Of a stretch of DNA of 64,000 bases, positions 21,983 to 41,222 are shown in pieces. Each line of letters begins with the position of its first letter. Position 1 is the stretch's first letter. The stretch is from the NCBI RefSeq assembly GCF_041053105.1, contig NZ_CP163444.1, positions 3,162,001 to 3,226,000 on the forward strand, written 5' to 3'. A program made the translations under genes and the position numbers. Source of the stretch: Streptomyces sp. R44 (GTDB lineage: Bacteria > Actinomycetota > Actinomycetes > Streptomycetales > Streptomycetaceae). Under the pieces are notes generated by a model. The model was given only the letters and a program-made list of their open reading frames with translations, was not told the origin of the DNA and did no database searches.

Positions 21983-22921
21983 ATGGAGCAGAACGGCGAA
22001 AGCACGTTCACGGTGATCGTGGCGGCGGCGGCGAACCTCGGGATCGCCGTCGCCAAGGCCGTCGCGGGCGTGGTCAGCGGATCGAGCGCGATGCTGTCGG
22101 AGGCGGCCCACTCGGTCGCCGACACCGTCACCGAGGTCATGCTGCTCACCGCGCTGAAGCGGAGCGACAGGCCGGCCGACGAGGACCATCCCGTCGGCTA
22201 CGCGGGCGAGCGCTACGTCTGGGCCCTGCTGGCCGCGGTCGCCACCTTCGTCGGCGGCGCGGTCTTCTCGATCTACGACGGGATCCACACGCTCACCCAC
22301 GGCGAGGAACTCGGCGACCCGCTGGTCTCGTACATCGTCCTGGGCATCGCCTTCGTCCTGGAGGGCTTCTCGCTCCGCACCGGCGTCAAGCAGATCAGGG
22401 CGGAGGCGGAGCGGATGAAGGCCCCCTTCGCCCAGTACCTCCGCCGGACGCCCGACACCACCGTCAAGGCGGTCGTGATGGAGGACTCGGCCGCCCTCGC
22501 CGGCCTCATGCTCGCGGCGGGCGGCCTGCTCGGCGTCCAGATCACCGGCTCCGACGTCTGGGACGGCGTCGCCTCGATCCTCATCGGCGTCCTGCTCGTG
22601 TACGTGGCCTGGGTCCTGGGCCGCTCCAACGCCGAACTCCTCATCGGCCGCCCGGCCCCGCGCGGCATGCGCGACGGCATCCGCGAGGAGCTCCTCTCGG
22701 TCCCGCACGTCATCGACGTCCTCGACCTGATCACCCTGATCCAGGGCCCCGGCGAGGTCCTGGTCGCGGCGAAGATCGACTTCAGGGACGTGTCGTCGGC
22801 GGAGCAGGTGGAATGGGCGTGCGAGGACGCGGAGTCCCAGCTCCGCGAGCGGTACCCGGCGATCCGCCGCGTCTACCTGGACCCGACGCCGGGGGTGACC
22901 CAGCGCCGGACCGAGCCGTGA
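21983..22921 (+). CDS. cation diffusion facilitator family transporter
   Basis: A 312-residue inner-membrane divalent-metal/proton antiporter. The first half has the CDF pattern: SGSSAMLSEAAHSVADTVTEVMLL carries the HxxxD metal residues of helix 2, DHPVGYAGERYVW follows, and VMEDSAALAGL is the helix-5 half of the site, though with ED rather than the more usual HxxxD spacing. The C-terminal 90 residues form the cytosolic domain. It is on the same strand 20 bp after the thioesterase, but has no obvious ribosome site, so it may use its own short or leaderless transcript. Metal specificity is unknown. Confidence 0.88.
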   Translation: MEQNGESTFTVIVAAAANLGIAVAKAVAGVVSGSSAMLSEAAHSVADTVTEVMLLTALKRSDRPADEDHPVGYAGERYVWALLAAVATFVGGAVFSIYDGIHTLTHGEELGDPLVSYIVLGIAFVLEGFSLRTGVKQIRAEAERMKAPFAQYLRRTPDTTVKAVVMEDSAALAGLMLAAGGLLGVQITGSDVWDGVASILIGVLLVYVAWVLGRSNAELLIGRPAPRGMRDGIREELLSVPHVIDVLDLITLIQGPGEVLVAAKIDFRDVSSAEQVEWACEDAESQLRERYPAIRRVYLDPTPGVTQRRTEP

Positions 22922-22955
22922 CGGCCAGCCCGAACGGCGCCCCGCCGCCAGCGGG

Positions 22956-23807
22956 CTAGCGGGGGCCCAGCGCGCGCCGCGCCGAGTTGATGACGGTGTT
23001 GGCTTCCGCCCCGAACACCGCCGACTCGCGCAGGGTCTTCCAGACCTTGCCGTACAGGACGATGTTGTCGGCGTCGTCCAACCACAGTTCGGCGTGCCAG
23101 TCCTCCGCGACGACCAAGCGGTCGTCCAGGACCCAGAAGCCGTTGGCGGGCACGATCTTCATCGACGCCGTGAACGGCACGACGCCCAGCTCGACCGTGT
23201 CCATGCCGACCATGCCGGTCAGGCGGTCGAGCTGGGCGGCCAGCACGGACGGTGGGCAGATCAGCGAACGCAACGCGGCCTCCCACATCAGCACGCGCAG
23301 CTTCCGCCCCGGCTGGTACAGCCACTCCTGACGCTGTGCCCGAACGCGCACGGCGTCCTCCACGCCCTTGGTGACGTTCAGCAGGTCCGCGTACCGCTGG
23401 ACCACGTGGCGTGCGTACTCCGGTGTCTGCATCAGCCCGGGGACCACGGCCTCTTCCCACACCCAGATTTCCGAGGACCGCTTGATCTCGGCGGTCAGCC
23501 CCTCGTTCATCGGCTTGAAGCCGTTCGCCAGCGCCCTACGCCATGACCTGATGTGCGACTCGAACCCGGCCAGCCGGGCGGCCAGCTCCGGGTACGCGTC
23601 CGGCTGCTCGGTCGCGTCGGCCCACGCCCGCAGGTCCTCGGGCGAGGCCGTCTGCTTCCCGTTCTCCAGCTTGCTGACCTTGGACCCCTGCCAGCCGAGC
23701 CGGTGGGCGAGCTGCTGGCCCGTCAGCCGACCACCAGGGCACGACAAGCGCAGTTCACGCAGCCTCGCACCCAACGCCTCCCGTGCCTGCTGGTAGTCGG
23801 TCGCCAC
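22956..23807 (-). CDS. XRE-family regulator with DUF5753-type C-terminal domain
   Basis: A 283-residue DNA-binding protein. The HTH (about residues 10-70, TGQQLAHRLGWQGSKVSKLENGKQ) is followed by the large C-terminal domain common in Streptomyces (EEAVVPGLMQTPEYARHVV, VPANGFWVLDDRLVVAEDW). These proteins often pair with small DUF397 or DUF6879 partners, and here the DUF6879-type gene lies directly upstream with a one-base stop/start overlap (TAGTG). The start codon is GTG. Expected target: its own promoter and the divergent mini-ORFs at 24731-25343. Confidence 0.87.
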   Translation of the reverse strand: MATDYQQAREALGARLRELRLSCPGGRLTGQQLAHRLGWQGSKVSKLENGKQTASPEDLRAWADATEQPDAYPELAARLAGFESHIRSWRRALANGFKPMNEGLTAEIKRSSEIWVWEEAVVPGLMQTPEYARHVVQRYADLLNVTKGVEDAVRVRAQRQEWLYQPGRKLRVLMWEAALRSLICPPSVLAAQLDRLTGMVGMDTVELGVVPFTASMKIVPANGFWVLDDRLVVAEDWHAELWLDDADNIVLYGKVWKTLRESAVFGAEANTVINSARRALGPR

Positions 23808-24553
23808 TAGTCGGCCGCAGCCACCTGCACGGCGAACCGGTCGTACGGCACGGCGTGGTGCATGGCCGCGTCACGGGCGACGCAGTATGGGACAACCCGA
23901 GCCGGCTCGGTGATCAGCTCGATGTCAAGCATGTTGTCTTCGTCGTCGAAGTGGAGCAGAGCGACGATCCGCGAGTCGAAGATCCAGAAGTCCTCGGCGG
24001 GCAGACCGGCCGCGTCATCGCGCCACAGGTAGCGGATGTCCTCGCCGGAGGCCGCGTTGTGCCGGGCGTAGTCGAGCAGAAACAACTGCTCGGTGGTCGG
24101 CGGGCGGTCGGCGATGCGGACCCGGCCGACGGTCTTGCCCGCGTCCACCTGGGCCCGGATGTTGACGAACCAGGGCTCGGTGGGGTCGCAGGGCGAGGAG
24201 CCGGTGGCCAGGAACGCTTGATAGTCGGGGTCCTGTCGGTCCGACGCATAACCGCGCCGTGTCTCCAGCCGCCAGGCGGTGTGCTTGAAGGTCTCGAAGA
24301 GACGCCGGAAGGTGTCTCGGTCGACCAGCTCCGGCACTCGCTCCATCTCCTTCGGTCCCCAGTTCACGAGCAGTTCGCGCGGCACGGCCACCGCTGCCTC
24401 GTCCGGCCCGAAGTGCTGGAGCTGAGCGAGGTCCGCCCGGTCGGTGATCGGCGAGCCCTGAACGATGATCTCGCCGGTCTCCTCGTCCGTGTGCAGGGCG
24501 GGGCAGCCGTCGATCTTGCTGTCGGTACCGATGAAGCGCAACTGACGTGCCAT
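23807..24553 (-). CDS. DUF6879-type protein, partner of the XRE regulator
   Basis: A 248-residue soluble protein. The second half matches the DUF6879 pattern I know from Streptomyces XRE partners: LFETFKHTAWRLETRRGYASD, then DFWIFDSRIVALLHFDDEDNM. The first 70 residues (MARQLRFIGTDSKIDGCPAL) form an extra N-terminal domain with a possible regulatory role. It is co-transcribed with the XRE gene, overlapping by one base. Function is unproven; toxin-antitoxin-like and regulator-partner roles have been suggested for such pairs. Confidence 0.75.
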   Translation of the reverse strand: MARQLRFIGTDSKIDGCPALHTDEETGEIIVQGSPITDRADLAQLQHFGPDEAAVAVPRELLVNWGPKEMERVPELVDRDTFRRLFETFKHTAWRLETRRGYASDRQDPDYQAFLATGSSPCDPTEPWFVNIRAQVDAGKTVGRVRIADRPPTTEQLFLLDYARHNAASGEDIRYLWRDDAAGLPAEDFWIFDSRIVALLHFDDEDNMLDIELITEPARVVPYCVARDAAMHHAVPYDRFAVQVAAAD

Positions 24554-24640
24554 GGACGCTCTCCCTTCCCTCCCAGGGGTGTTGATCCAACAGCTTGGTC
24601 GGCGATCCGGCGCGGTTCTACGGGTTCAGCTGGGGCACAG

Positions 24641-24723
24641 GAGAAAACACGAGCAATCTGGTCCACCCGTCGAGCAAATTCGAGAAAACAGCGTACCGCC
24701 GCGCAACACCCCGTCCCTAGCGT
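24641..24723 (+). promoter_or_regulatory. direct repeats and -10-like box before leaderless mini-ORF
   Basis: GAGAAAACA occurs at 24641-24649 and 24682-24690, 41 bp apart (about four helical turns), in a locally AT-richer gap. TAGCGT (24718-24723) is a -10-like hexamer 7 nt before the ATG at 24731, which would put the transcript start at the ATG; there is no ribosome site. Confidence 0.45.
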
Positions 24724-24730
24724 CGAGTTC

Positions 24731-24934
24731 ATGACGACGAAGGAACTCAACGAGGTGGACCCGTTCGTAGCGATGGAGTCCCTGCGGGAAGCGCTGGCCG
24801 GGGTCGGGATCGTCCTGCCATCGCTGGGAGTCGACCCCGGGTCCCCGGCTTTGAGGCTCGTGGAGCTGGGCCGGGTCCGCGCCGACGTGGCCGTCCGGCT
24901 GGCCGAAGCACTCCGGCGGGGGGCCGAGCAGTGA
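24731..24934 (+). CDS. small protein of unknown function
   Basis: A 67-residue protein (MTTKELNEVDPFVAMESLRE...), probably two or three helices, with no motif I recognise. It overlaps the next small gene by 4 bp (GTGA) and is divergent from the DUF6879/XRE pair, an arrangement seen repeatedly in Streptomyces. Lack of a Shine-Dalgarno sequence and a -10-like box 7 nt upstream suggest a leaderless message. Confidence 0.65.
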   Translation: MTTKELNEVDPFVAMESLREALAGVGIVLPSLGVDPGSPALRLVELGRVRADVAVRLAEALRRGAEQ

Positions 24935-25155
24935 CGGCCGAAGTCGGGGCGCTGGTGGTCGACGACCGGACCAACAAGCTCGGATACGTCGTGGGCCACG
25001 TCGGTCCGGCTATGCAGCTCCGGCCGGTGGCTGGCGGACGAGAGTGGGACGCCGACCCTGCTCATGTCCGCCCCGCCACCAGCCAGGAGCGGCTCAGGGC
25101 CATAAGGGAGCGGACCCGCGCCCTGAACTCGGCCAGCAGCGGCGGAGTCCTCTGA
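24931..25155 (+). CDS. small protein of unknown function
   Basis: A 74-residue protein starting with GTG inside the preceding stop (GTGA overlap). The sequence GALVVDDRTNKLGYVVGHVGP followed by LRPVAGGREWDADPAHVRPA suggests a small beta-barrel (SH3-like) domain, then a helical tail. Similar mini-proteins accompany XRE/DUF6879 genes in Streptomyces. No function can be assigned. Confidence 0.7.
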   Translation: MTAEVGALVVDDRTNKLGYVVGHVGPAMQLRPVAGGREWDADPAHVRPATSQERLRAIRERTRALNSASSGGVL

Positions 25156-25343
25156 TGCCGGCGGCGGCCATGTCCCCCGAATGCAGACTCGCCCAGAGCC
25201 CCGGATATGAGGACCTGCACCGCGAGTGCCGACAGGCCAAGGACGTGCCGCTGCCGTACGGCGCAGGGATTCTCCTCGTACGCCGCTGCACCTGCTCCCA
25301 TCACCCCTACAACCGCAGGCCGCAGCCCCGCGCCCCCGCTTAG
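25155..25343 (+). CDS. small Cys/His-containing protein of unknown function
   Basis: A 62-residue protein whose ATG overlaps the previous stop by one base (TGATG). It contains C-x(16)-C and a later RRCTCSHHPYNRR segment; the two clustered Cys, two His and upstream Cys could bind a metal (inference). Third member of the overlapping mini-ORF set; transcription ends at the strong hairpin at 25360. Confidence 0.6.
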   Translation: MPAAAMSPECRLAQSPGYEDLHRECRQAKDVPLPYGAGILLVRRCTCSHHPYNRRPQPRAPA

Positions 25344-25359
25344 GAGGCAGCACACGAAC

Positions 25360-25396
25360 CTGAGCCCCGTCCCAACCTCACTGGGACGGGGCTCAG
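25360..25396 (+). terminator. strong intrinsic terminator after the mini-ORFs
   Basis: A perfect 15-bp stem (25360-25374 with 25382-25396) with a 7-nt loop is followed by TTGT. It ends the 24731-25343 transcript. Confidence 0.9.
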
Positions 25397-25447
25397 TTGT
25401 CCTTGAGACCTCCGGCCGGAGAGCACCGCTGCGCTACCATGGTCCGC

Positions 25448-25551
25448 AGCGGGATGACTACCCGCTCGCACCTGGGCGGCCCGACCTCAACAGCCGGGAA
25501 CCAGGACGCAATAGCCCCGTTGGAGCTTCGGGGCCCCAGTAGGAGGGGCCC
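25448..25551 (+). other. structured non-coding stretch upstream of unit A
   Basis: Hairpins follow each other: AGCGGG/CCCGCT (25448-25453 with 25461-25466), CCTGG/CCAGG (25471-25475 with 25501-25505), GCCCCG/CGGGGC (25514-25519 with 25529-25534). The last competes with GGGCCCC/GGGGCCC (25531-25537 with 25545-25551). No gene is apparent in 25344-25743, so this is a candidate small RNA or the 5' part of the unit A leader. Confidence 0.45.
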
Positions 25552-25628
25552 AGACGCACAAAGCAGTGAAGACGGGGCTTGCGCCGAAGGATGTACTACC
25601 TGCTTGACCTGGGCTGACGATCAGCCCA

Positions 25629-25743
25629 CCCGAGAACATTTACGTGCTGTGCGTCGGCGTAGGTGTCTCGGTCCGAACCGTAGGGTTCGGATCGAGGCTG
25701 CCTGCGCACCCGATCCGACCCATGACAGGGAAGGTAAGGATCG
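25629..25743 (+). promoter_or_regulatory. structured leader of unit A with competing hairpins
   Basis: The leader shares with unit B a CCCGAGAACAT box (25629-25639) and GCGTCGGCGTAGGTGTCTCG (25651-25670), where CGAGA and TCTCG can pair. Four segments follow: 1 CCGAACC (25673-25679), 2 GGTTCGGATCG (25684-25694), 3 CGATCCGACC (25711-25720), 4 ending GGATCG (25738-25743). 1 pairs with 2, 2 with 3 (8 bp plus 2), 3 with 4 (6 bp), so the pairings exclude one another. Segment 4 touches the GTG start. Pairing 3:4 would cover the translation-initiation region. Confidence 0.7.
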
Positions 25744-25944
25744 GTGGACGGCACCGCCATCATCATCATTCTCGCCATCGCTGGCGTGGCTTCTGTGCTG
25801 CTCTTCGCGCTGAAGGGTCTTCTGGACCAGGTCCCGGACGTCATCGACTCGGCCGGGCGTGCCCGCGACTCCTGGCAGCGCTTCCGGAAGCCCGAGCAGC
25901 AGCCCGCACGTGATGACGAGCAGGAGCCGCCCATGGCCGCATAG
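25744..25944 (+). CDS. single-pass membrane mini-protein, unit A
   Basis: A 66-residue protein from GTG 25744. Residues 4-25 form one transmembrane helix (TAIIIILAIAGVASVLLFAL), followed by a conserved amphipathic stretch LDQVPDVIDSAGRARDSWQRF and an acidic, Pro-rich tail ending PPMAA. A paralogue with the same layout lies 660 bp downstream (26403), with a matching leader and trailer. Size, single helix and RNA-structured leader resemble type I toxins or small membrane effectors, but nothing in the sequence proves toxicity. The start is fixed by alignment with the paralogue (MDG[TA]AI). Confidence 0.78.
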   Translation: MDGTAIIIILAIAGVASVLLFALKGLLDQVPDVIDSAGRARDSWQRFRKPEQQPARDDEQEPPMAA

Positions 25945-26016
25945 CCCCGCCACGGGGTCTTCCTGACTCCACCTGGGCATGAAGACGCCCCGCCGACCCA
26001 ACTCCGGCGGGGCGTC
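25945..26016 (+). terminator. conserved trailer and terminator of unit A
   Basis: A CCCCG/CGGGG hairpin starts directly after the stop codon. The stretch GGGGTCTTCCTG is shared with unit B, and a perfect 12-bp stem (25984-25995 with 26005-26016) ends the transcript. Confidence 0.82.
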
Positions 26017-26022
26017 GCCTGC

Positions 26023-26049
26023 TTGACGCCACGGCAGGCGTGGTACAGT
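26023..26049 (+). promoter_or_regulatory. possible promoter upstream of unit B
   Basis: TTGACG (26023-26028) and TACAGT (26044-26049) resemble -35 and -10 boxes, but are only 15 bp apart. A transcript from here would carry the AT-rich tracts, the GAAA-loop hairpin and the unit B leader. Confidence 0.4.
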
Positions 26050-26067
26050 CGTAGCGCAGCACTACAT

Positions 26068-26265
26068 CTTCTTAAATTTCTTGCGTTTCTGTGTTTTCTG
26101 TATTTCTTAGCGCGAACCTGATCGTCCCCTCACGGGGAAGTCAGGACCATCCAGGCGCGGTAGGCCCGGAGGCGAAAGCCTCAGACGCGCGGCCAATCCA
26201 GCTCAGATGGCGCGAATATTCTTCCTCTTCTTAATTTCTGCGTTTAGCTTTCATGATCTTCTTTG
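26068..26265 (+). ncRNA. AT-rich pyrimidine tracts flanking a structured block, candidate RNA
   Basis: Two similar tracts, CTTCTTAAATTTCTTGCGTTT (near 26078) and CTTCTTAATTTCTGCGTTTA (near 26228), stand out in a high-GC genome. Between them are CCTGA...TCAGG enclosing TCCCC/GGGGA (about 26117-26146), and GCGCG (26155-26159) paired with CGCGC (26186-26190) enclosing GAGGC-GAAA-GCCTC, a GNRA-capped hairpin. No ORF fits. With the flanking leader, this fills the 458 bp between the two mini-protein genes. Confidence 0.45.
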
Positions 26266-26290
26266 AGTGGCGACCCCGCACGGGTCGCAC

Positions 26291-26402
26291 CCCGAGAACA
26301 TCCGCGTAACGCGTCGGCGCAGGTGTCTCGACCCGAACCCACTGGGTTTGGATCGAGCCCTGCGTGCTGCGATCCAAACCCTTAACCCGAAAGGTTTGGA
26401 TC
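26291..26402 (+). promoter_or_regulatory. structured leader of unit B with four competing segments
   Basis: The shared CCCGAGAACAT box (26291-26301) and GCGTCGGCGCAGGTGTCTCG (26311-26330) precede four segments: 1 CCGAACCC (26333-26340), 2 GGGTTTGGATCG (26344-26355), 3 CGATCCAAACCC (26370-26381), 4 GGTTTGGATC (26393-26402). 1:2 makes 8 bp with one G-U, 2:3 a perfect 12 bp, 3:4 a perfect 10 bp. Segment 4 abuts the ATG at 26403 and includes the GG of the GAAAGG ribosome-binding candidate. Relative to unit A, a C-G pair in 2:3 has become U-A, a compensatory change that supports the pairing. Confidence 0.78.
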
Positions 26403-26630
26403 ATGGACGGCGCAGCCATCCTCCTCATTCTTGCCGTTACCGGTGTGGCGTCGATCATCTTGTTCAGTCTCAAGGGGCTTCTTGACCAGCTTCCGGACGT
26501 GATCGACTCGGCCGGACGTGCAAGAGATGCCTGGCAGCGCTTCAGGGCACTGAAGCCGCCGCCATCGCTGGCGAGCGAAGAGGGACAGCCCGCCCTGGAG
26601 AGCGACGAGGAGCCCCCCGTGGCCGCGTAA
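26403..26630 (+). CDS. single-pass membrane mini-protein, unit B
   Basis: A 75-residue paralogue of the protein at 25744: MDGAAILLILAVTGVASIIL forms the transmembrane helix (about residues 4-24), then KGLLDQLPDVIDSAGRARDA with a longer acidic tail ending EEPPVAA. The amphipathic core (LLDQxPDVIDSAGRARDxWQRF) is almost unchanged between copies while the tail varies, so the core is likely functional. Controlled, by inference, by the competing hairpins in its leader. No closer family was recognised; alternatives include a type I toxin, a small membrane anchor, or a phage-derived membrane peptide. Confidence 0.78.
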   Translation: MDGAAILLILAVTGVASIILFSLKGLLDQLPDVIDSAGRARDAWQRFRALKPPPSLASEEGQPALESDEEPPVAA

Positions 26631-26706
26631 CCCCGTCGTGGGGTCTTCCTGGCTCTCCCTGGACATGAGAACGCCCCGCCCGGGCCCCGAGGACCGGGCG
26701 GGGCGT
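26631..26706 (+). terminator. conserved trailer and terminator of unit B
   Basis: As in unit A, a CCCC/GGGG hairpin follows the stop codon, then the shared GGGGTCTTCCTG stretch and a perfect 13-bp stem (26671-26683 with 26694-26706). Confidence 0.82.
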
Positions 26707-26803
26707 CTCTGTGCGACGGGAGGGCCGTCCGTGGGCTCAGGCGGTCACGGCCGGCCGGAACCGGACGCCCATGGTGTGGCGGCCGAGCCGGGCGGCGGCA
26801 GGC

Positions 26804-27589
26804 TCAGGCCACCAGGCCCGCCGCGTTCAGCGTGTACGTCGTCAGGGGTTCGTAGAAGCGGGGGTCCAGGACGTGGTCGTCCAGGGGGATCGTGACCTGC
26901 ATCGTGCCCTCCGCCTCGCCGATGAAGAGCGCGGGGTCGTTGCAGTCCGCGTAGCCGACGGAGTCCACGCCCCGCTGGCCCGCGCGCCCGGCCCAGCCGT
27001 GGTCGGCGATGACGAGGTCCGGGCGTCCGGACTCGCCGAGCGCGTCGAGGATCGCGTTCATCGGCTCCGGGGAGTGGGTGTGCCACAGGCTCGCGCCGCG
27101 CTCGAAGACGGCGACGTCGGCGAACTGCACGACGTACCCCTCGTCGGCGACGAGCCCGCCCGGGATCCGGACGATGTCGCAGCCCTGGGCGCGCAGCGCG
27201 GCCGCGACCCGGCTGTGCACGTCGATGAGCGCGCCGGGGTGCCCGGTCGCGAAGAGGACCCGCTCACGGCTGGCGGCGGCCTTGCGGAGGCGGGCGGCCA
27301 TCCGGTCGAGGCCGTCGACGGTGAGTTCGGGGTCGATGGTGTCCTGGCCGGCCCGGTGCGCCGGGTCGTCGACGACGCCGCACCGCTCGGCCATGACGGC
27401 GAGCACGTCCTGCTCGTCGGTCCAGCGGTCGCCGAGTTCGAGGCCGAGCCAGTAGTGCCGGTCGCCGTTGGCGAGCTTGCGGTAGTGGGAGAGGTTGTTG
27501 TCGCGCGGGGTGGCGACGTCTCCCGCGATCCGGGTGCGGACGAGGTGCTCGACGAGGGCGGGGCGGCTGAGTATCGGCATGAGGTTCAT
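26804..27589 (-). CDS. phosphatase-like protein
   Basis: A 261-residue cytosolic protein often annotated simply as phosphatase in Streptomyces. It contains VLFATGHPGALIDVHSRVAA and LVIADHGWAGRAGQRG, with acidic and His residues that could form an active site, but no classical HAD or phosphoesterase signature is clear. It follows the TetR gene on the same strand (47-bp gap) next to the leucine-catabolism operon. Function should be regarded as unproven. Confidence 0.7.
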   Translation of the reverse strand: MNLMPILSRPALVEHLVRTRIAGDVATPRDNNLSHYRKLANGDRHYWLGLELGDRWTDEQDVLAVMAERCGVVDDPAHRAGQDTIDPELTVDGLDRMAARLRKAAASRERVLFATGHPGALIDVHSRVAAALRAQGCDIVRIPGGLVADEGYVVQFADVAVFERGASLWHTHSPEPMNAILDALGESGRPDLVIADHGWAGRAGQRGVDSVGYADCNDPALFIGEAEGTMQVTIPLDDHVLDPRFYEPLTTYTLNAAGLVA

Positions 27590-28311: not shown

Positions 28312-29919
28312 ATGCAGCAGGCACCTGTGCTGACGAGCGCGGCGGATCCCGCGTCCGCGGCCTGGCAGGCCAATGAGGCGGCCCATCACGAGCTGGCGGC
28401 GACCCTGCGCGCCAAGCTCGCGGCGGCCGCCCTGGGTGGCGGTGAGAAGTCCAGGGCCCGGCACACCGCGCGCGGCAAGCTGCTGCCGCGGGACCGGGTG
28501 GACACGCTCCTCGACCCGGGCTCGCCCTTCCTGGAGCTGGCCCCGCTCGCGGCGAACGGCATGTACGGCGACCAGGCCCCGGCCGCCGGCGTCATCGCGG
28601 GCATCGGCCGGGTCTCCGGCCGCGAGTGCGTGATCGTCGCCAACGACGCGACCGTCAAGGGCGGCACGTACTACCCGATGACGGTGAAGAAGCACCTGCG
28701 CGCCCAGGAGGTGGCACTGGAGAACCGTCTCCCCTGCCTCTACCTGGTCGACTCGGGCGGCGCGTTCCTGCCGATGCAGGACGAGGTCTTCCCGGACCGG
28801 GAGCACTTCGGCCGGATCTTCTACAACCAGGCCCGGATGTCCGGCGCGGGCATCCCGCAGATCGCGGCGGTCCTCGGCTCGTGTACGGCCGGCGGCGCGT
28901 ACGTCCCGGCGATGAGCGACGAGGCCGTGATCGTACGGAACCAGGGCACGATCTTCCTGGGCGGTCCGCCGCTGGTGAAGGCGGCGACCGGCGAGGTCGT
29001 CACGGCCGAGGAGCTCGGCGGCGGCGAGGTCCACTCGCGGATCTCCGGCGTCACCGACCACCTCGCCGAGGACGACGCCCACGCGCTGCGCATCGTCCGG
29101 AACATCGTGGCCACGCTCCCCGACCGCGGCCCGCTGCCCTGGAAGGTCGAGCCGGCCGAGGAGCCGAAGGTCGACCCGTACGGTCTGTACGGCGCGGTGC
29201 CGGTGGACTCCCGCACCCCGTACGACGTGCGCGAGGTGATCGCCCGGGTCGTGGACGGCTCCCGCTTCCAGGAGTTCAAGTCCGAGTACGGGCAGACGCT
29301 GATCACCGGCTTCGCCCGGATCCACGGCCACCCGGTCGGCATCGTCGCCAACAACGGCATCCTGTTCGCCGAGTCCGCCCAGAAGGGCGCGCACTTCATC
29401 GAGCTGTGCGACCAGCGCGGGATCCCGCTGGTGTTCCTGCAGAACATCACCGGCTTCATGGTCGGCAAGGCGTACGAGCACGGCGGCATCGCCAAGCACG
29501 GCGCGAAGATGGTGACGGCGGTCGCCACGACCCGCGTCCCGAAGCTGACGGTCGTCGTCGGCGGTTCGTACGGCGCGGGCAACTACTCGATGTGCGGCAG
29601 GGCGTACTCCCCCCGCTTCCTGTGGATGTGGCCCAACGCCAAGATCTCGGTCATGGGCGGCGAGCAGGCCGCGTCCGTCCTCGCGACGGTCAAGCGCGAC
29701 CAGCTCGGCGACGAGTGGAGCGCCGAGGACGAGGAGGCCTTCAAGGCCCCGATCCGCGAGCAGTACGAGACGCAGGGCAGCGCCTACTACGCGACCGCCC
29801 GGCTGTGGGACGACGGGGTCATCGACCCACTGGAGACCCGGCAGGTCCTCGGCCTCGCCCTGACCGCCTGTGCCAACGCGCCCCTGGGTGACCCCCAGTT
29901 CGGCGTCTTCCGGATGTGA
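28312..29919 (+). CDS. acyl-CoA carboxylase carboxyltransferase (methylcrotonyl-CoA type)
   Basis: A 535-residue beta subunit that moves the carboxyl from biotin to an acyl-CoA. Its start ([20 protein letters not shown]) and core ([58 protein letters not shown]) match the methylcrotonyl-CoA carboxylase beta type. Neighbours encode the biotin carboxylase subunit, HMG-CoA lyase and an acyl-CoA dehydrogenase, so the substrate is most likely 3-methylcrotonyl-CoA from leucine. The stop overlaps the next start (GTGA). Confidence 0.92.
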
Positions 29920-38515: not shown

Positions 38516-39952
38516 ATGCGCTCCCACCTGCTCAACGACACGACGGCGGAGTCATACCGACGCTCCGTCACCGAAGGAGTCGAGCGGGTGGCGAGGAAAC
38601 TCGCCACGGCACACGGACCGTTCACCGGCATCACCCCCGCCCAGCTCGCCCCCGTCGTCGACGCCGTCGACCTCGACCGTCCGCTCGGCGACGCCTCCGC
38701 CGCCCTCGACGAGCTGGAGAGCGTCTACCTCCGCGACGCCGTCTACTTCCACCACCCCCGCTACCTCGGGCACCTCAACTGCCCGGTGGTCATCCCCGCC
38801 GTCCTCGGCGAGGCCGTCCTCTCCGCCGTCAACTCCTCCCTCGACACCTGGGACCAGAGCGCCGGCGGCACCCTCATCGAGCGGAAACTGATCGACTGGA
38901 CCACCGGCCGCATCGGCCTCGGCCCGCTCGCCGACGGCGTCTTCACCAGCGGCGGCACCCAGTCCAACCTCCAGGCCCTGCTCCTCGCCCGCGAGGAAGC
39001 CGGCAGCACCGACCTGTCGAAGCTGCGGATCTTCTCCTCCGAGTGCAGCCACTTCAGCGTCCAGAAGTCCGCCCAGCTGCTCGGCCTGGGCCGCGACGCG
39101 GTCGTCGCCGTCCCGGTCGACCGGAACAAGCGGATGCAGTCCGTCGTCCTCGCCGCCGAGCTGGAGGCCTGCCGCGCCGAGGGCCTCATCCCGATGGCGA
39201 TCGTCGCCACCGCCGGCACCACCGACTTCGGCTCCATCGACCCGCTGCCCGAGATCGCGGCCCTCGCCGCCGAGTACGGCGCCTGGATGCACGTCGACGC
39301 CGCCTACGGCTGCGGGCTGCTCGCCTCCCGGACCCGCCGCCACCTCCTGGACGGCATCGAGCACGCCGACTCCGTCACCGTCGACTACCACAAGTCCTTC
39401 TTCCAGCCGGTGAGTTCCTCCGCCGTCCTGGTCCGCGACGGCGCCACCCTGCGCCACGCGACCTACCACGCGGACTACCTCAACCCGCGGCTCCCCCAAG
39501 CTCAGATCCCCAACCAGGTCGACAAATCCCTCCAGACCACCCGCCGCTTCGACGCGCTCAAGCTCTGGATGACCCTGCGCGTGATGGGCGCCGACGGCGT
39601 CGGCGAGCTCTTCGACGAGGTCTGCGACCTGGCCCGCGAGGGCCACGCGCTGCTCGCCGCCGACCCGCGCTACGACGTCGTGGTCGAGCCGCAGCTCTCC
39701 ACCCTCGTCTACCGCTACGTCCCCGGGGCCGACGCCTCCCCCGAGGACGTCGACCGGGCCAACCTGCACGCCCGCAAGGCCCTGTTCGCCTCCGGCGAGG
39801 CCGTCGTCGCCGGCACGAAGGTCGACGGCCGCCAGTACCTGAAGTTCACCTTGCTCAACCCCGAGACCACCGCGGCCGACATCGCCGCCGTCCTCGATCT
39901 GATAGCCGGCCACGCCGAGCAGTACCTGGGAGAGAACCTTGTCCACGCCTGA
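38516..39952 (+). CDS. desA: lysine decarboxylase of desferrioxamine biosynthesis
   Basis: A 478-residue PLP-dependent decarboxylase that turns lysine into cadaverine, the first step to desferrioxamine E/B. The PLP Lys is in [15 protein letters not shown], with the Asp that binds the pyridine nitrogen in [10 protein letters not shown] and [16 protein letters not shown] near the phosphate site. Regulated through the iron box at 38457. ATG 38516 follows GGAAGGG. The next gene, desB, starts within its last codons. Confidence 0.95.
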
Positions 39953-41222
39953 GACGACCGAGACGTACGACTTCATCGGTATCGGGCTCGGTCCGTTCAA
40001 CCTGGGCCTCGCCTGCCTGACCGAGCCGATCGCCGAACTGAACGGCCTCTTCCTGGAGTCGAAGCCGGACTTCGAGTGGCACTCGGGGATGTTCCTCGAA
40101 GGCGCCCACCTCCAGACCCCGTTCATGTCGGACCTGGTCACCCTCGCGGACCCGACCTCGCCGTACTCCTTCCTCAACTACCTGAAGGAGAAGGGCCGGC
40201 TCTACTCGTTCTACATCCGGGAGAACTTCTACCCGCTGCGGACCGAGTACAACGACTACTGCCGCTGGGCGGCCGGAAAGCTCACGTCGATCCGCTTCTC
40301 GACGACGGTGACGTCGGTCGCGTACGAGGAGCCGGAAGAGCTCTACGTGGTGACCACGGCCGGCGGCGAAACGTTCCGCTCGCGCCGCGTCGTCCTCGGC
40401 ACGGGCACCCCGCCGTACGTCCCCGAGACCTGCCGGGACCTGGGCGGCGACCTGATCCACAACTCGCGCTACCTCCCGCACAAGGAGGAACTGCAGAGGA
40501 AGAAGTCGATCACCCTGGTCGGCAGCGGACAGAGCGCGGCGGAGATCTACTACGACCTCCTGAGCGAGATCGACACCCACGGCTACCGGCTGAACTGGGT
40601 GACCCGCTCCCCCCGCTTCTTCCCCCTCGAATACACCAAGCTCACCCTGGAGATGACCTCCCCGGAGTACGTGGACTACTTCCACGCGCTGCCCGAGCGC
40701 ACCCGGTACCGCCTGGAGACGGAACAGAAGGGCCTGTTCAAGGGCATCGACGGCGAGCTCATCGACGCCATCTTCGACCTGCTCTACCAGAAGAACCTGA
40801 GCGGCCCGGTCCCCACGCGCCTCCTGACCAACGCGTCCCTGAACTCGGCCTCGTACGAGGAGACGACGGGCACGTACACGCTCGGCTTCCGCCAGGAGGA
40901 GCAGGAGAAGGACTTCACGGTCGAGACGGAGGGCCTGATCCTCGCGACCGGCTACAAGTACACCGTCCCGGCCTTCCTCCAGCCCGTCGAGGACCGTCTC
41001 CGCTTCGACGGCCAGGGCCGCTTCGACCTGGCCCGCAACTACGCGATCGACATCACCGGCCGCGGGATCTTCCTGCAGAACGCCGGCGTGCACACGCACT
41101 CGATCACGTCCCCGGACCTGGGCATGGGCCCGTACCGCAACGCGTACATCATCGGGGAGATGCTGGGTTCCGAGTACTACCCCGTAGAGAAGACCATCGC
41201 GTTCCAGGAGTTCTCCGTTTGA
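39939..41222 (+). CDS. desB: cadaverine N-hydroxylase of desferrioxamine biosynthesis
   Basis: A 427-residue FAD- and NADPH-dependent N-monooxygenase of the lysine/ornithine hydroxylase family, hydroxylating cadaverine. The FAD motif [14 protein letters not shown], the NADPH motif [18 protein letters not shown] and the C-terminal [11 protein letters not shown] are present. The TTG start overlaps the end of desA and is supported by GGAGAG and by the family N-terminus ([10 protein letters not shown]). A TnpB-only transposon is inserted exactly at the TGA stop codon, leaving the protein intact but separating desB from desC. Confidence 0.95.

Follow-up and report, generated by a model that had tools for sequence, protein, structure and literature searches.

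A conserved leader with alternating pairings before genes of predicted membrane mini-proteins in Streptomyces, a likely translational switch

The stretch of Streptomyces sp. R44 DNA analyzed here (the window: 64,000 nucleotides, part of an 8.9-Mb chromosome) carries at 25430-26706 two tandem units, A and B, each made of a leader, an open reading frame (ORF), a short hairpin after the stop codon and a terminator-like repeat. Such a unit is probably the gene of a predicted single-helix membrane mini-protein whose leader, predicted to span ~300 bases and to carry a folded domain (R) and a ladder of five segments, serves as a cis-acting translational switch. The ladder segments, numbered 0 to 4, can pair in a chain (0:1, 1:2, 2:3 and 3:4) in which neighboring helices compete. 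Mutually exclusive predicted pairings of this kind are conserved in two classes of leaders (I and II), the R domain is kept in part of class I, and strong matches to a model of the ladder are tied to the mini-protein gene.

An earlier note on this DNA, made from its letters and ORFs, had placed two adjacent units here with their parts in this order, and both the sequence and the ORFs bear it out, down to the hairpin and the terminator-like repeat behind each stop codon. It had described four segments, all of which are present, but the ladder has a fifth, segment 0, which lies upstream and competes for segment 1 by pairing with its first part. The segments named in that note are confirmed, but a further folded region upstream of each ladder had been overlooked. 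The features, with the evidence on which each rests, are as follows.

25430-25440, + strand: unit A promoter-like box TGCGCTACCAT, extended -10 type (pattern TGNRNTANNNT)
25441-25578, + strand: unit A R domain, made up of the three hairpins Sa, Sb (CCTGG..CCAGG) and Sc and including unpaired letters that are invariant (alignment, RNAalifold, pair counts, model R2)
25611-25627, + strand: unit A hairpin P0, GGGCTGACGATCAGCCC (by eye)
25630-25644, + strand: unit A segment 0 (0:1 pairing)
25657-25679, + strand: unit A segment 1, can pair with either 0 or 2 (helix list, pair counts)
25684-25707, + strand: unit A segment 2, can pair with either 1 or 3 (helix list, pair counts)
25711-25721, + strand: unit A segment 3, can pair with either 2 or 4 (pair counts)
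25728-25734, + strand: unit A Shine-Dalgarno (SD)-like GGGAAGG, within or at the edge of the 3:4 loop (sequence)
25733-25743, + strand: unit A segment 4, conserved core 25738-25743, abuts the GTG start (core 3:4 pair counts)
25744-25944, + strand: mini-protein A, 66 residues (ORF, protein searches, structure prediction)
25945-25957, + strand: unit A post-stop hairpin CCCCG-CCA-CGGGG (sequence)
25984-26016, + strand: unit A terminator-like inverted repeat (inverted-repeat search)
26023-26049, + strand: unit B promoter-like TTGACG-15-TACAGT (by eye; the TGNRNTANNNT box is absent here)
26108-26215, + strand: unit B R-like fold, with a T-rich tract on either side (fold z -3.25)
26270-26288, + strand: unit B hairpin P0, GCGACCCCGCACGGGTCGC (sequence)
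26292-26306, + strand: unit B segment 0 (helix list)
26317-26339, + strand: unit B segment 1 (helix list)
26344-26365, + strand: unit B segment 2 (repeat search, helix list)
26370-26381, + strand: unit B segment 3 (repeat search, helix list)
26389-26394, + strand: unit B SD-like GAAAGG (sequence)
26393-26402, + strand: unit B segment 4, abuts the ATG (sequence, repeat search, helix list)
26403-26630, + strand: mini-protein B, 75 residues (ORF, protein comparison)
26631-26643, + strand: unit B post-stop hairpin (sequence)
26671-26706, + strand: unit B terminator-like inverted repeat (inverted-repeat search)
22919-26813, no strand: stretch absent from a relative that has the same flanks (locus comparison)

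The helices themselves are extensive. In unit B the repeat search recovers the perfect 12-bp 2:3 helix that had been noted (26344-26355 with 26370-26381), and the perfect 10-bp 3:4 helix lies inside a 92% complementary pair of stretches, 26371-26383 with 26390-26402. The 8-bp 1:2 pairing is present as described, but in the lowest-energy folds it is merely the tip of a longer hairpin; in unit A, 1:2 comprises 24 pairs. A candidate pseudoknot, b:c, first read as a kissing pair, was discarded as it turned out to be the base of this long 1:2 hairpin. The SD-like stretch lies within or at the edge of the 3:4 loop, and the start codon stands at the foot of the 3:4 helix, which ends at or a few bases from the start in the listed leaders of classes I, II and V. 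In the representatives shown from these three classes, the four ladder helices rank among the first in a plain list of best helices.

Sixty-six leaders were collected and sorted into classes I (26, including both units of the window), II (19), IIb (2), III (10), IV (4) and V (5). Class V takes in L024, the 3' part of an interrupted leader in genome G371, and L151, whose 5' part looks incomplete. Loci judged by eye to have an absent or partial leader were excluded (L041, L053, L054, L058 and L074), as were near-duplicates such as L045, and L153 was not added. Pairs were counted in 22 class I and 19 class II aligned leaders. The class I leaders are 81% identical by mean column, and the proteins behind those fetched are 42-92% identical to mini-protein A over the best segment. 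In class I, the closed state (1:2 with 3:4) is kept in 95.8% of pair cells and the open state (0:1 with 2:3) in 95.6%, whereas controls in which the partners were slid by 1-3 columns pair in 17-49%. The 0:1 pairing alone is kept in 94.4% of cells and the six-pair core of 3:4 in 95.5%. In class II the open state is kept in 88.1% and the closed in 79.9% of cells, against 21-47% in slid controls. The earlier note had named beforehand, as the observation that would count against it, homologous leaders in other genomes that fail to preserve the pairings; the pair counts find the pairings kept in both classes, and single class V leaders keep the alternation as well. The exchange of C-G for U-A in 2:3 that it had reported between the units is real, with C-G in 19, U-A in 2 and U-G in 1 of the 22 leaders. 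Covariation scores were equalled by 0 of 500 shuffles for the open and 10 of 500 for the closed state of class I, and by 0 and 36 of 500 in class II, although kinship among sequences can beat shuffles without any structure.

Folding energy points in the same direction, as the ladders of units A and B reach z scores of -5.1 and -4.9, each with none of 200 shuffles as good. Thirteen of the 66 leaders were tested for the four-step ladder against dinucleotide shuffles, and it outdoes them in 8: none of 100 shuffles is as good in units A and B, L047, L050, L157, L149 and L145, and 1 of 100 in L057. Near class III there is a separate observation: a stretch resembling TGCGACGGGAAYGGGTCCGACGTCCCTTTCGGGCG is strongly conserved some tens of bases before the leader in L056, L062, L073 and other loci of that class.

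The leader also appears to be specific to this gene. Across 392 genomes a ladder model gave 17 matches with an expectation value (E) of at most 2.3e-11, in 15 genomes, and all 17 end at a mini-protein start located independently by protein search, with none elsewhere; 11 of them are training sequences of the model, matched by construction, and 6 are not. Among the weaker matches, one (G383, E 0.11) immediately precedes a diverged mini-protein (L157), another (G371, E 0.0072) is the 5' half of a leader, ~700 bases upstream of the protein in an interrupted unit (L161), one (G185) is repeat-like sequence, and the other seven are the opposite strands of real leaders. A model of the R domain, R2, was run on 382 genomes. 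Each of its 6 matches at E < 1e-3 lies upstream of a unit (3 are training sequences, 1 has the same score as a training sequence and 2 are outsiders), and 9 matches at E 0.03-0.87 have no mini-protein motif nearby. Both large scans used stricter filters, in which weak matches are lost.

Upstream of the ladder, the R domain consists of the hairpin Sa, a CCTGG..CCAGG stem that encloses another hairpin, and a long stem with bulges, in which certain unpaired letters are invariant. Its consensus fold from six leaders has an energy of -49.5 kcal/mol (RNAalifold) and pairs in 90.0% of cells. Counted in the same six leaders from which the structure was derived, 14 of 42 pairs are doubly changed, against 6.5 +/- 1.9 in shuffles (1 of 500 as good), and the covariation score is 0.284 against 0.170 +/- 0.021. 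R2 also matches a class V unit (L023, E 1.5e-5), and its three outsiders have E values of 1.5e-5 to 2.9e-5. The folded region at the R position of unit B has a fold z of -3.25 (1 of 200 shuffles as good), and R2 gives no match to it; a 131-base piece upstream of L057 folds with z -1.70. By eye, class IIa loci have a similar CCTGG..CCAGG stem, and the upstream sequences of other classes differ. No Rfam family matches at its gathering score except tRNA elsewhere, the weaker matches being to unrelated families. The TGNRNTANNNT box that opens unit A occurs in 16 of 24 class I leaders at -235 to -165 relative to segment 0 (mean 0.2 and maximum 3 in shuffles), the pattern having been derived from the leaders in which it was counted. 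At the P0 position, many class I leaders show, by eye and without a statistic, inverted repeats of differing letters. The folded region of unit B is flanked by two T-rich tracts, 26060-26107 and 26216-26262, which share a CTTCTTAA(A)TT repeat and are unusual in this G+C-rich genome.

The mini-proteins form a family of ~50-110 residues with a predicted membrane helix. A and B are 71% identical. A profile search found 298 relatives at E <= 1e-3, having scored just the 7993 candidates that share most words. A single-sequence search finds relatives in 44 of 392 Streptomyces genomes and a profile in 74, some of these being distant relatives that lack the leader; class-wide they occur in 10 of 394 genomes and 3 of 137 genera, and the named genome records that contain relatives are nearly all Streptomyces. 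Tandem copies are found in the window, G127, G178 and L037. The most constant letters are LLDQ(L/V)PD, and M1, L10, G25, L27, D28, Q29 and P31 are invariant in 55 relatives; class I proteins share a conserved acidic tail. The single helix described at the outset is supported by prediction: AlphaFold2 gives one helix at residues 2-48 followed by a disordered tail, with a mean predicted local distance difference test (pLDDT) of 74.3 and a predicted template modeling score (pTM) of 0.40, and the hydrophobic residues, at about 5-22 in the sequence, fall in the N-terminal half. The named relatives among the 120 listed are hypothetical proteins, apart from a few labeled 'secreted' or 'TatA'. A TatA-like bent shape, suggested by those few names, was set aside, the predicted model being one continuous helix. 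The absence of a named family, also part of the earlier note, holds in the searches of RNA and protein families: no significant Pfam, NCBIfam, PHROGs or PADLOC family was found (best SecE at E 0.14, PHROG 30103 at 0.17 and B12D at 0.25). A search of open-licence papers, including one for letters such as KGLLDQLPD, found no account of the family, which does not prove its absence from print. No relative was present in 50,697 phage records, and a phage origin was rejected; relatives do occur in 2 plasmid records and in 3 contigs of IMG/VR.

The two states were forced in 52 of the 66 leaders (classes I, II, IIb and V) by nearest-neighbor prediction. The closed state is predicted to be favored, with class medians of 8.9 (I), 8.9 (II), 13.9 (IIb) and 8.3 kcal/mol (V), and in 50 of the 52 the open state is predicted to expose the SD-like stretch and start more than the closed state does. 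Unit B behaves in this way, with an openness of 0.25 when closed and 0.55 when open.

A number of results weigh against a translational switch of this design. The state energies rest on a helix picker that seeks ladders, without a shuffle control; within class I the two states differ by -5.0 to +20.8 kcal/mol, the open state being the stabler in at least one leader. Two of 26 class I leaders show the predicted opening in reverse. One is unit A, whose SD and start have an openness of 0.44 when closed and 0.28 when open. The switch for a small membrane effector proposed in the earlier note is partly supported, by the conserved alternating layout; the predicted opening of unit A runs counter to it. 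Few pairs within a class are changed on both sides, and these counts are for the most part close to those of shuffles: 3 in the open (1.7 expected) and 2 in the closed state (2.0) of class I, 6 (4.2) and 5 (4.4) in class II. The shuffle test failed in class III (95 of 100 shuffles as good for L056, 80 for L062) and class IV (13 for L064), for which reason the ladder layout is merely suggested in these two classes; it also failed for L139 of class IIb (19 of 100) and L021 of class V (11 of 100, its segment 0 being cut by the 118-nucleotide test limit), and the three-step ladders in class II were matched by 6-14 of 100 shuffles. Some class II arms favor class V partners over their own; segment 2 of L149, for instance, pairs at -22.7 with its own segment 3 and at -27.5 with that of L021. 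R2 matches just 8 of 27 class I units at E < 0.01 (62 sources were given), namely its six training rows, L044 and L045, a near-duplicate of L044. The folding energy of R is modest, with z scores of -1.96 in unit A and -0.98, which is not unusual, in L023. Coupling between R and the ladder is only a proposal. Finally, 8 of 19 distant protein matches (L144, L148, L154-L156 and L158-L160) have no such leader by eye. Five of these loci (L154-L156, L158 and L160) encode distant small proteins that start with approximately M-x-WD and have a similar helix.

If the leader does act as a switch, its off state would be 1:2 with 3:4 and its on state 0:1 with 2:3. The 3:4 helix, whose loop contains or borders the SD-like stretch and whose 3' arm abuts the start codon, would block ribosomes. 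Segment 0, transcribed first, could hold segment 1 until segment 2, on emerging, stripped segment 1 from it by strand exchange, leaving 3 for 4. Since the closed state is predicted to be the stabler (medians of 8-14 kcal/mol), the default would be closed. If a trigger stabilized 0:1, segment 2 would be available to segment 3 and the start would become accessible. R, found at E < 1e-3 solely before this ladder, would be the likeliest site at which such a trigger is read, and the mini-protein released would act in the membrane.

Two other readings, a type I toxin gene and a small-molecule riboswitch, are retained because each would use this layout. In the first, which we consider somewhat unlikely, the leader would prevent translation of a membrane toxin both while the mRNA is being made and afterwards, and a putative antisense RNA would neutralize the open form. 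Typical type I toxins are shorter than these mini-proteins, and we know of no conserved 140-base domain resembling R among the features of their mRNAs; the conserved acidic tail of class I proteins is a further point against a toxin. The small protein with its one predicted helix would fit, as would its sporadic presence among genomes, the tandem copies and the stretch missing from a relative. So would the alternative SD-hiding hairpins, which recall those of aapA3 (PMC6733600). The coding sequence offers another point in favor. In 26 class I ORFs, not quite the same set as the 26 leaders of that class, most synonymous sites of the first 16 codons (25744-25791 and 26403-26450 in the window) are fixed. 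Synonymous fixation is, for example, 1.00 at alignment columns 11, 13 and 15 (counted from 0) against ~0.5 expected from host codon use, and 0.67 against 0.51 at column 3; from column 16 on it is mostly at or below expectation, with exceptions such as columns 18 and 30. By eye, TTCT recurs at codons 9-11 in most units of all classes. This constraint may reflect a further element that overlaps these codons, for instance a cleavage site or an antisense promoter, and an antisense element would suit a toxin. Pairing between ORF and leader was rejected as its general cause, the SD-ORF duplex exceeding synonymous controls (p <= 0.01) in just 3 of 16 units, all of class I. No antisense promoter or RNA was identified, no dedicated search having been made beyond the codon, TTCT and inter-unit duplex analyses. 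In the last of these, the inter-unit region was rejected as a trans-acting RNA on the leaders, its duplexes of -79.9 and -79.3 standing against shuffle means of -83.1 and -79.3.

A small-molecule riboswitch, with R as aptamer and the ladder as expression platform, is unlikely. Its appeal lies in the covarying helices of R around invariant unpaired letters, placed before a platform of alternating helices that reaches as far as the start codon. Metabolite aptamers usually keep their core across genes, whereas R precedes a single protein family at E < 1e-3 and the sequences upstream of the other classes look different.

It is quite improbable that the leader is a mere stability, processing or transcription element whose alternating pairings are a by-product of repeated similar segments in a G+C-rich leader. 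Segments 1 and 3 are indeed alike, as are 0, 2 and 4, and cross-pairing therefore comes easily; the modest number of doubly changed pairs and the arms that prefer another class's partner also suit this view. It is opposed by the position of 3:4 at or near the start codon, by the shuffle test and by the fidelity of the arms, which pair on average 1.6-2x better with their own partner than across classes. In arms hand-picked from 6-7 representative leaders, mean energies with own and cross-class partners are -13.1 and -6.4 kcal/mol for 0:1, -34.2 and -21.8 for 1:2, -20.7 and -11.5 for 2:3, and -11.3 and -6.3 for 3:4. An erm-type leader-peptide attenuator is highly unlikely. All 26 class I leaders do have a frame that crosses the core of segment 1 and whose start codon lies at this core or farther upstream (in 16 it is a GTG at the core itself), but the frame stops at differing places (-62 to -70, -17 to -21, +55 or none in the 30 rows listed); by eye, no SD stretch precedes the GTG, and the GTG is not kept in classes II-V.

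The units lie in variable surroundings. In relative G015 the stretch 22919-26813 is missing, its flanks lying 17 bases apart, and in G004 a different 2.4-kb stretch occupies the same place. The loci of 15 relatives, spanning 1.5 kb per side, have no match inside it except 1-3 bases at the right edge. The place, with loci L187 and L188, reads as an insertion hot spot. The missing stretch also carries an XRE/DUF5753 gene and a DUF6879 gene (22956-24553). Genes that cluster with them are found in 6 and 5 of 46 sources, respectively, and hence they are not obligate partners; members of both clusters recur ~1-3.5 kb upstream of several class I units. A conserved partner gene was sought and discarded, none being universal and the largest shared neighbor clusters, apart from the mini-protein itself, covering 9 (mixed), 6 and 6 of 46 sources. 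A small ORF at 24931-25155 has no Pfam match, so a BldB-type partner is not established. Elsewhere, the class III loci L062, L069, L071 and L072 lie near relatives of the window genes at 38516-41222 and, except for L071, also of the gene at 28312.

A broader proposal is put forward tentatively: the units may represent a new class of bacterial RNA machine of ~0.6 kb, in which a self-contained sensor domain drives a five-step strand-exchange cascade that releases a dedicated membrane mini-protein, spread among Streptomyces chromosomes on variable islands. The switch favored here, if real, would add a family of RNA-controlled membrane mini-proteins to Streptomyces, and the leader would let partner exchange be traced across many diverged natural versions. 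The conserved letters of R would offer a direct route to the trigger, and the classes would provide ready tests of co-transcriptional folding.

Among known systems, the missing stretch resembles the XRE/WhiJ-BldB-AbaA loci of Streptomyces (PMC10294661) in holding an XRE/DUF5753 gene, but differs in that the association of such a gene with the units is not constant. Like translational riboswitches, such as the candidate Streptomyces motifs dauA and livJ in PMC11109978 (the dauA fold includes the Shine-Dalgarno), the leader is an upstream folded RNA near a start site; unlike them, it lacks an Rfam match at gathering score and is tied to one uncharacterized mini-protein. It shares with hok/sok a membrane mini-protein under a refolding mRNA, the refolding being predicted here; hok differs in requiring 3'-end processing and the overlapping mok frame (PMC8167048). 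The nearest described mechanism is that of aapA3/IsoA3, for which PMC6733600 reports successive, mutually exclusive SD-hiding hairpins that are supported by covariation and in which letters of the ORF take part. Both are mRNAs of small proteins with exclusive hairpins that hide, or here would hide, the SD, and the letters of the ORF are constrained here too. The same study describes a demonstrated antisense RNA, an interaction between the 5' and 3' ends, and toxicity for aapA3/IsoA3; the units of the window differ from the system described there in having a separate folded domain upstream and a ladder of five segments.

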